A stretch of 64,000 bases of DNA from a bacterium. Lineage in GTDB: Bacteria > Gemmatimonadota > Gemmatimonadetes > Gemmatimonadales > Gemmatimonadaceae. The stretch lies in the NCBI GenBank assembly GCA_027484025.1, contig JAIXTI010000286.1, forward strand, positions 1 to 64,000. The letters run 5' to 3'. The notes beneath the pieces were generated by a model. The model saw only the letters and a program-made list of their open reading frames with translations. It had not been told where the DNA came from and ran no database searches. Position 1 is the first letter of the stretch, and every line of letters starts with the position of its first letter. The position numbers and the translations under genes were made by a program. Positions 26,030-30,949 of this stretch are shown here, piece by piece.

Positions 26030-27451
26030 CTAGAACGTGAAGAACGAGAAGCGACCACCGCTCGAACCGAGACTGCTGAAGCGCTGGTTCACGATGGTGT
26101 TGTAGATGGAGCCGAAGGTGTAGCGGATACCGATGTTCGTCGTGATGCGGAAACCCGTCTGCAAGGCCTGACGCTGCAGCAGAATTTCCTCTTCGGTGTT
26201 GCCGGCACGCGGCAGATAGATCTGGTCGTTGATGCGCGCCGCCGAGCCGCCCACGTTGAGCGAGAAACCGCGACCGATGCGCAAGTCGACGTTGCCGCTC
26301 AGCGTGAGGGCGTGCCGGCTGAAGTCGTGGAGATAGTTGAGCCAGTCGAGCGACAGATTGCTCGAGCCCCACGACTGCCGCGCCACATACGACGCCGTCG
26401 CCTGCTGGCTGAAACGCGTTTCCGTATCGCGATTGTAGACGGTAGTGCGCTGATAGTCGTAGTAGTTCGGGCCCACGTTGTACAAGAAGGTCAGCTGGCG
26501 ACGCGTCTGCTCGCTCCAGTTGAACACGTTGTACTCGATCGCCGGCTGGAAGCGCAGCGCGACGTCCTGATTGAGGAAGTCCGAGTACCCGGCGCCGAGC
26601 TTCATGCCCGCCGACCAATGCGACGACAGCGTACGCACGACGAGCGCGTTCGCGTTGTACGTGCGCTGCTTGTTCTCCACGGTGAACGCGGGACGCCCCG
26701 GTTGTTCGCCGATTTCGAACTTCTGCGTGTTCACGTTGCCGCTGGCGGACACGTTGATCTTCCAGTTCGCCGTCGCGCGATTGGCGGCCAGCGACAGGGA
26801 CCCGTTAATCGACTGCTGACGGTCTTCGGCGCGGATGAACGCGTTGAAGTTGGTCGTGTACGTCCAGAGGTTCCACTTGTCCTTCAGGTTCGCCGCCGAC
26901 ACCTGTTGCTGCTGTTGGCCGAACGGCGCGATGTACGCCATCTGCAATCGCGACGCGATGGGCGACTTCGCCACATAGCGTGCGAGTCCCAGCTTGAACA
27001 CGCGCGACAGCTCACGACGGATGCGGTCGTCGGGATCGTTGGGGAGCGTGTTGAGCACGAGCGTATCGGCCATCCCCTCGAACTTCCGGCGGCCAATGAA
27101 GGTGATCGTGTTTTCCGATCCGCCCCCGCCGTTGGTGAGTCCCGACACGAGGATCTGCACGTCGGCATCGAACCGGTCGCGCATCCAGTTCACGAAGTTC
27201 ACGTCGGTGACGATGAAGTCACGGTCGCAGCCGCGCACGCGTCCCTGACAATCGAGGAATACGCGAATGGCCTGCGACTGCAGCGTCGCGGAGTCGGGCT
27301 TGCCCATCGGCGGACCGCCAGGGGGCATACCAGCCGGCCGACCAGTCGGCGGGCCAGCAGGGGGGCCGCCCTGAGCCGCGAGGGACACGGGAGCGACGAG
27401 GGTAGCCGCAATACAAAGAGAGAGGCTCAGGCGAGCCAGTCGGAGCGTCAT
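26030..27451 (-). CDS. Secreted, probable outer-membrane beta-barrel protein of unknown function
   Basis: Signal peptide; Gly/Pro-rich linker (GGPPAGPPTGRPAGMPPGGPPMG); repeated amphipathic strands; C-terminal FSFFTF. Confidence 0.78.
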   Translation of the reverse strand: MTLRLARLSLSLCIAATLVAPVSLAAQGGPPAGPPTGRPAGMPPGGPPMGKPDSATLQSQAIRVFLDCQGRVRGCDRDFIVTDVNFVNWMRDRFDADVQILVSGLTNGGGGSENTITFIGRRKFEGMADTLVLNTLPNDPDDRIRRELSRVFKLGLARYVAKSPIASRLQMAYIAPFGQQQQQVSAANLKDKWNLWTYTTNFNAFIRAEDRQQSINGSLSLAANRATANWKINVSASGNVNTQKFEIGEQPGRPAFTVENKQRTYNANALVVRTLSSHWSAGMKLGAGYSDFLNQDVALRFQPAIEYNVFNWSEQTRRQLTFLYNVGPNYYDYQRTTVYNRDTETRFSQQATASYVARQSWGSSNLSLDWLNYLHDFSRHALTLSGNVDLRIGRGFSLNVGGSAARINDQIYLPRAGNTEEEILLQRQALQTGFRITTNIGIRYTFGSIYNTIVNQRFSSLGSSGGRFSFFTF

Positions 27452-27553
27452 AAATCAGGGAAGGGGGGTCAGCGCTTCCAACATCTTCGTCGGTGCCGCT
27501 ACGGTGCCGAACGGCCGACGGTCCCGTTTGGTTGCAGCCGTGGAAACAGTCCG

Positions 27554-27651
27554 GACCCCCCGTAGTTGCCCTCCCGTAGTTCCCCTCCCGTAGTTCCCCT
27601 CCCGTAGTTCCCCTAGCGTAGTTCCCCTCCCGTAGTCCCCCTCCCGTAGTT
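27554..27651 (-). repeat. 14-bp tandem repeat, 7 copies (minus-strand unit AACTACGGGAGGGG)
   Basis: CGTAGTT/CGTAGTC cores at 27561, 27575, 27589, 27603, 27617, 27631, 27645: exact 14-bp spacing, separated mostly by CCCCTCC. Confidence 0.95.
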
Positions 27652-27665
27652 CCAATAGCCCCCCC

Positions 27666-28553
27666 CTACCACCCCCTCACCACTTCTCTCACACAATCCA
27701 CAAACGCCCGAGCCGACGGCGACACGGTCGTCCCCCGCCGCCAGACCGCCACGATCTCCCGCTGCAACGTGTGGTCGGCCAGCGGCACATAGGCGCACTG
27801 CGGCGTATTGTGCCGCGCCGCCGCCATCGCCGGCACGATCGACACCCCCACTTCGGCCCCCACCAGCTCGAGCACCGTGGCCAGCTGCGCACTGCGGCAC
27901 ACCACCGAGGGGAGCACCTGATTGCTGGAGCAGAACCCAGCGACCTGCTCACCCAGACAGTGCGCCGGGTCGAGCGTCACCGCCGGTGCGTCGCGGAGCT
28001 GCGCCAGCGTGATGCGACCGGCGCGAGCGGCCGCGTGCGACCCCGGGACCGCGACCACCAGCGCGTCCGTGCCGAGCGGTTCTGTGTCGAGGTGGTCGAA
28101 GCCATAAGGCAGCGCCGCTATTACCACATCAAGCGCACCATCAAGCAACTGACGCGCCAGTACGGCACTATAGTCCTCCCTGAGCTCAATCCGCAGGGAG
28201 GCCTGTCGCACGCGCAACCGACGCAGCGCCGCCGGGAGGATGTACGGCGCCACGGTGGGAATTGCCCCGACGCTCAGCGTGCCGGTCCCGTCTGCGCCCT
28301 CACGGCGTACCGCGTCTTCGGTGGCGCGCAGCTCGTCGAGGATGCGCCGAGCCCGCGGGTAGAGCGCCTTGCCGGCGTCGGTGAGCGTGACCCCCCGGCC
28401 GTGCCGGTTGAACAACGGCGCCTCCAGGTGCCGCTCCAGGCGCTGGATCTGCGCCGTCAGTGACGGTTGCGACAGCCCCAGCAGCCCCGCCGCACGACTC
28501 AGCGAGCCGGCATCGGCGGTCTCCACGAATGCGCGTAGCAGTGTGCCATCCAT
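27666..28553 (-). CDS. oxyR: LysR-family regulator, OxyR-type
   Basis: LysR HTH (SLSRAAGLLGLSQPSLTAQIQRLE) plus DPAHCLGEQVAGFC: two cysteines with the OxyR C199/C208 spacing. Divergent from katG. Confidence 0.85.
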   Translation of the reverse strand: MDGTLLRAFVETADAGSLSRAAGLLGLSQPSLTAQIQRLERHLEAPLFNRHGRGVTLTDAGKALYPRARRILDELRATEDAVRREGADGTGTLSVGAIPTVAPYILPAALRRLRVRQASLRIELREDYSAVLARQLLDGALDVVIAALPYGFDHLDTEPLGTDALVVAVPGSHAAARAGRITLAQLRDAPAVTLDPAHCLGEQVAGFCSSNQVLPSVVCRSAQLATVLELVGAEVGVSIVPAMAAARHNTPQCAYVPLADHTLQREIVAVWRRGTTVSPSARAFVDCVREVVRGW

Positions 28554-28558
28554 ATCCC

Positions 28559-28595
28559 ATAGGCTACAGCTATATCCTATATAGGTAAAGCCCCA
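28559..28595. promoter_or_regulatory. OxyR-like operator ATAG-N7-CTAT-N7-ATAG(-N7-CCCA)
   Basis: ATAGGCTACAGCTAT (28559-28573), 7-nt spacer, then ATAG at 28581; half-sites spaced exactly 11 bp. Fourth half-site degenerate. Confidence 0.75.
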
Positions 28596-28645
28596 TTGCT
28601 GCCTATGACAGGAGTCCGTATCGTACCTGAGTTACGGCTCGGTGA

Positions 28646-30949
<2,304 letters not shown>

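Follow-up and report, generated by a model that had tools for sequence, protein, structure and literature searches.

The seven-unit tandem array at positions 27554-27651 of the window (the whole 64,000-nucleotide stretch of Gemmatimonadaceae DNA analyzed here) is probably a degenerate arm of a dispersed palindromic repeat family, hereafter family A, which is anchored at stop codons, associated with genes for the 23S rRNA intervening sequence protein (IVP, PF05635), and probably mobile. This membership is not visible from the window alone. The window array itself is a modest and probably degenerate member, and it is the family and its link to IVP genes that are the interesting part. The features of the locus are as follows:

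27666..28553, minus strand: gene for a LysR-family regulator (PF00126/PF03466), divergent from katG, with its stop codon at 27666.
27652..27665, minus strand: 14-bp stretch GGGGGGGCTATTGG, from the LysR stop codon to the first unit.
27554..27651, minus strand: array of seven 14-bp units with the consensus AACTACGGGAGGGG, running outward-to-inward from 27651 to 27554.
27568..27581, minus strand: innermost full unit, which ends in GGGC instead of GGGG and sets the polarity of the array.
27554..27567, minus strand: degenerate inner unit AACTACGGGGGGTC, continuing into TCCGGACC.
26030..27451, minus strand: gene for a 473-aa protein, starting at 27451, with a signal-peptide-like N-terminus and a C-terminal Phe (the barrel gene).

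The preliminary description, made from the sequence, had reported a seven-copy 14-bp array between the stop of one minus-strand gene and the start of the next, and both the array and its placement were borne out. The minus strand carries seven units in a common register, of which the outer 6 are close to the consensus, and TRF run on the 64-kb window places a period-14 repeat at 27559-27653 (6.8 copies, 91% matches, score 162), which is by far the top tandem repeat of the window, every other score being 51 or less. The upstream gene had been named oxyR; its affiliation to the LysR family stands, whereas the OxyR name is not certain, the OxyR models matching below their cut-offs. The LysR-family gene and katG (27666-30949) are arranged divergently, which is the usual oxyR-katG layout. 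The product of the 473-aa gene has no match in Pfam or NCBIfam and is of the outer-membrane type as judged by inspection only. The orthologous locus of Gemmatimonas sp. UKL202c, an independent assembly, also carries a seven-unit array, with different unit variants, and the window array is thus not an assembly artefact. The first unit follows the LysR stop after 14 bp in the window and after 25 bp in UKL202c. Between this stop codon and the first unit, 27652..27665 contains no recognizable terminus at the position where other copies of the family have the terminal ACTGCGGTTTGGG. Because the ACTGCGG terminus and a second arm are absent from the locus in both species, the window copy is not provable as a former full element. 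The 25 longest inverted repeats listed for the window include no other family-like member.

The unit recurs both in this genome and in its relatives, where the preliminary description had proposed to look for it. A two-unit 28-mer, allowing up to 3 mismatches, gave 63 matches in the genome, compared to 0 for the reversed control, far more than chance would give, and the exact 14-mer with its close variants occurs at about 14 loci. Similar numbers of loci were found in two sister Gemmatimonas species, UKL202c (G006) and Gemmatimonadaceae RE-15aug16-119 (G009), which, besides the window's own genome, were the only genomes matching the two-unit pattern in a GTDB-based collection, a scan that may leave out the window's own genome. 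The loci are nearly all orthologous across the 3 species and differ in their unit variants; with most copies common to all three, no instance of a recent insertion emerged. The majority of copies have two arms and form palindromes of 190 to 350 bp, which, from the outside, consist of the outer end ACTGCGGTTTGGG, 3 to 10 units (the first often TACTACGGTAGGGG and the last ending in GGGC), a core roughly 100 bp long that frequently contains units of another 14-bp type (GACCACGACCCCGC), and the mirror image of the same units. The GGGC-ending innermost unit is present in most family A arms, and the window array keeps this polarity. One locus (L029:5037) is two-armed in UKL202c and one-armed in both this genome and RE-15aug16-119, indicating that one-armed states are variants of one locus. 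In this genome (G000), contigs C213 and C79 end inside one family A element, the flanks of which are joined in UKL202c; since contigs break in this manner, the number of elements counted in a genome is a minimum. Genome G020, assembled into one contig of 4,636,964 bp, carries a 15-bp version of the unit, CTACGGGAGCTGGNN, at both one-armed and two-armed loci.

The link to IVP genes emerges from 2 orthologous family A copies, L038 and L044, in which the core is long and contains an ORF matching PF05635 and TIGR02436. The IVP gene is located inside the family A arms, and the repeats of these copies are the same in kind as the units of the window array. The solved relatives of this IVP by sequence are XCC0516 (2GSC) and, weakly, 2RLD. 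A PF05635 search of the genome identified 4 IVP genes, each between repeats of a different dispersed family:

C236:866: IVP gene within family A.
C236:28731: IVP gene between ACTGCGGTTCGGG-ended palindromes (family B).
C68:19530: IVP gene between CTAGCCCTCAGG palindromes (family C).
C2:12060: IVP gene between CTCAGAG arrays (family D).

Genome-wide pattern matches exceeded those of the controls for families B (82 versus 7), C (80 versus 0), and D (28 versus 0), and the families taken from IVP flanks in three other species (G013, G020, and G001) comprised 156 matches for TAGCTCGCGCCC arrays, 51 for CTACGGGAGCTGG arrays, and 8 for AACTGCGGTAGCAGT, with 0 control matches in the genome carrying each family; all these patterns were derived from the IVP flanks and hence are not blind to the hypothesis. 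Thus, each of the 7 tested IVP loci can be assigned to a repeat family dispersed in the same genome. At the genus level, the inverted repeats bracketing the IVP gene are stronger than those at the best of 400 random window positions for 23 of the 26 loci; the inverted-repeat test found no bracketing repeat at the other three (L050, L053, and L065). We also considered IVP loci on plasmids of Nostoc, Calothrix, Pseudanabaena, Anabaena, Stanieria, Geminocystis, Azospirillum, Riemerella, and Gemmatirosa. For some additional IVP loci, the assignment relies on the PF05635 search of the genome together with record annotation. Short-period arrays are present within 150 bp of the IVP gene at 16 of 18 plasmid loci, in 13 cases with a period divisible by 7, and the genes mostly adjoin or lie between 7- or 8-bp arrays, 20 of 29 of which start within −25 to +12 bp of an annotated stop codon. 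That dispersed repeats lacking IVP exist for every tested IVP family, and that inverted arrays of 7- to 8-bp units accompany IVP genes in other phyla, strongly suggests that such repeats and IVP genes are one kind of element. The link is positional only, and IVP has no known catalytic domain. In phages, no IVP match was found.

Two of the dispersed families can be described further. Family B consists of dispersed palindromes with the ends ACTGCGGTTCGGG and ACGGCGGTTTGGG, found in G000 at C236:28376-29465, where 2 copies bracket the IVP gene, on other contigs, and also at L067. Family C comprises palindromes of about 135 bp with the ends ACTAGCCCTCAGG(G/A)AAAAGAACG at about 40 loci in G000, such as C68:19323-20102 (80 end matches in all), and here, too, 2 copies bracket the IVP gene. 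In Pseudanabaena (L146), Anabaena sp. 90 (L151), and Picosynechococcus (L156), IVP genes with heptamer or octamer arrays are located inside CRISPR operons, with the gene orders cas6-IVP-cas4 and cas10-IVP-cmr3.

Family A sits in varied gene contexts, mostly intergenic, and its ends are often fused to stop codons. Among 47 element ends, 18 are no more than 3 bp away from the in-frame stop of an open frame with 100 or more codons, and 7 have exactly TGA followed by ACTGCGG; the same picture was obtained when a coding score was used instead of open-frame length. With orthologues counted once, 7 of about 14 independent loci have one end within 2 bp of an in-frame TGA stop. The corresponding sites of outgroup species retain the stop codon, with the family A element there either absent or replaced, and the outgroup flanks align at the inspected junctions, none of which has a readable target-site duplication. 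In the window, it is the LysR stop codon that anchors the array. For a mobile element, a stop-codon junction would be an unusual choice of target.

The main rival explanation is that the palindromes are selected as functional 3′-end structures, namely, terminators or stabilizers of mRNA 3′ ends, with the sequence turning over while the hairpin slot stays. We consider this unlikely as the sole account, and such selection may act in addition to mobility. It agrees with the location of the elements directly after stop codons, and a folded two-armed copy forms a near-perfect hairpin (−234.7 kcal/mol, z = −21.8). The repeats of Xanthomonas and Nostoc likewise lie on the coding strand, 0 to 50 bp downstream of stop codons (PMC4692102). 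Furthermore, the palindrome found in a given slot differs from species to species. The window slot, which separates the barrel gene from the LysR stop, contains an unrelated palindrome of AACCCGA-like heptamers in G042, and the LysR stop is followed by CGCAGAG-type repeats in G004 and CTGACCT-type repeats in G044. Similarly, the L042 slot is occupied by other palindromes in G042, G005, and G016 (with CCCCCTG heptamers in the latter two), and, across other species, the L030/L042 and window slots hold unrelated heptamer-like palindromes or none. This turnover also speaks for the reading of family A as a dispersed element. Either such slots attract insertion or the palindromes in them are quickly rewritten. 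However, the window copy has a single arm, which scores no better in folding than shuffled sequences do (z = +1.5), G044 has a plain, short hairpin at the L042 slot, and selection on 3′ ends does not account for the pairing of each repeat family with an IVP gene of its own, which it brackets. Co-evolution between the 2 arms was also considered as proof of hairpin upkeep and was rejected, the signal being weak and confined to one genome of two (p = 0.014 in UKL202c and 0.18 in this genome).

The preliminary description had itself viewed the array as a cis-regulator, with G-quadruplex (G4) potential and a copy number tuning the outer-membrane-type gene, which we regard as improbable. On paper, the G3+N1-7 pattern is indeed there: the array contains 3 non-overlapping motifs with a G4Hunter score of 1.49, and, as predicted from the sequence, a G4 would be the only special structure of the window arm. 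G-rich heptamer repeats of a similar kind form G4s in vitro (PMC4692102). Nevertheless, the motif is present in 14 of 20 arms in this genome and 17 of 20 in UKL202c, and its absence from 9 of the 40 led us to reject the G4 as a conserved feature of the family. The expected variability in copy number is seen between species at other loci, such as L036/L017 with about 8 units in this genome and 12 to 13 in RE-15aug16-119, but not at the window locus, where both available species have 7. Nor was the specific tie to the barrel gene supported, given that the family is anchored to upstream stops and is not confined to the upstream regions of one gene type; in the window, the stop in question is that of the LysR gene, and the array lies about 100 bp from the barrel-gene ATG, a distance at which the suggested Shine-Dalgarno role is unlikely. 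A regulatory reading centered on the barrel gene is accordingly not favored, and such arrays should not be read as promoter VNTRs of the next gene.

The closest published kind of repeat are the GGGAATC heptamers of Xanthomonas, described together with the GGGGA(C/T)T heptamers of Nostoc as G-rich, tandem, and intergenic, with variable unit numbers (Rehm et al. 2015, PMC4692102). That study reports 70 to 75 convergent inverted pairs in 2 Xanthomonas, usual conservation of the single or inverted repeat type between species, a preference for positions shortly after stop codons, and generally no association with mobile elements, and the passages compared here do not mention IVP. Family A is similar in its G-rich tandem units, dispersed and mostly intergenic distribution, convergent inverted pairs, and position close after stops on the coding strand, whereas it differs in the unit length of 14 bp (15 bp in G020) instead of 7 bp, the defined outer end ACTGCGGTTTGGG, stop-codon fusion at half of the loci, and bracketing of IVP genes. 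The TAACTGA heptamers of Beggiatoaceae also form abundant intergenic arrays of short units, including mixed heptamers, but these are mostly direct, with one inverted case, and the passages compared here report no bracketed IVP gene (PMC4679880). In the 23S rRNA intervening sequence (IVS) of Coxiella, an S23p/IVP ORF is enclosed by inverted repeats, and tandem heptamers (GACAGAT) upstream of the ORF vary in number between strains (PMC4990558). Family A shares the IVP ORF within inverted repeats, but occupies intergenic regions of protein genes and mostly lacks the ORF; the window copy, too, sits between 2 protein genes and not inside a 23S rRNA gene. This Coxiella case is the only one in the open-access library searched in which we found IVP and tandem repeats together, and no paper found there joins IVP genes with dispersed repeats. 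Family A copies other than the window copy further resemble MITEs in being short and non-coding, with terminal inverted repeats; their ends are shared only by the IVP-bearing copies.

REP/REPIN sequences are dispersed short palindromes with units of 20 to 40 nt, and their partner gene, encoding a RAYT, is bracketed by the same repeats. Family A follows this pattern of dispersed, intergenic short palindromes plus a bracketed gene, which by analogy makes REP/RAYT the closest working model for the mechanism. That the elements are themselves of the REP/BIME type and moved by a RAYT (IS200-like Y1 transposase) is nonetheless very improbable: the arrays have a period of 14 bp, the bracketed gene encodes a PF05635 protein and not a Y1 transposase, and the one detectable Y1_Tnp gene (C127:75881-76216) is not near the listed copies of families A to D, which disfavors a RAYT/IS200 partner. 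Finally, an isolated minisatellite produced by local replication slippage and unrelated to other loci is barely credible, even though tandem repeats do expand by slippage and the unit variants at the window locus differ between the 2 species, because the dispersal of the same 14-mer over about 14 loci with shared polarity and a common inner-end rule refutes a slippage-only origin, slippage still being likely for array length.

Returning to family A as a probably mobile, IVP-associated family, we infer that the short copies would be non-autonomous derivatives that spread with the help of an IVP-bearing copy, in analogy to REP sequences and RAYT. The units would then grow, shrink, and homogenize by slippage or template switching. 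The window copy may have lost, or may never have had, its second arm, and its array would be transcribed at the 3′ end of the LysR mRNA and be a largely passive scar, still predicted to be able to form a G4. More broadly, PF05635 IVPs could be the partner genes of a widespread, unrecognized class of mobile palindromes, built of 7-bp or 14- to 15-bp tandem units and inserting at stop codons, although we advance this generalization only tentatively and find it somewhat less probable than its converse. If true, non-autonomous copies of IVP palindromes would account for many of the heptamer repeats in cyanobacteria, proteobacteria, Bacteroidota, and Gemmatimonadota, with the 23S rRNA intervening sequences as their rRNA-located case. 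Descriptions of heptamer-type repeats and of IVP genes go back decades, in neither case with an explanation; the positional link would trace both to one origin and supply a partner protein open to testing, and the repeats bracketing an IVP gene may help to explain how such repeats originate.

Other palindromes were observed both at the window locus and elsewhere in the genus. The palindrome CGGTCCGGACCG lies at the inner end of the window array (27547-27559), where it is partly eroded, and is intact in UKL202c and G042; it is possibly an operator or a promoter part of the barrel gene. Intergenic hairpins of Gemmatimonas at L054, L065, L108, and other loci consist of AACCCGA/GGGTTTC-like or CTCAGAA-like heptamers arranged around GATC (e.g., AACTGATCAGTT).
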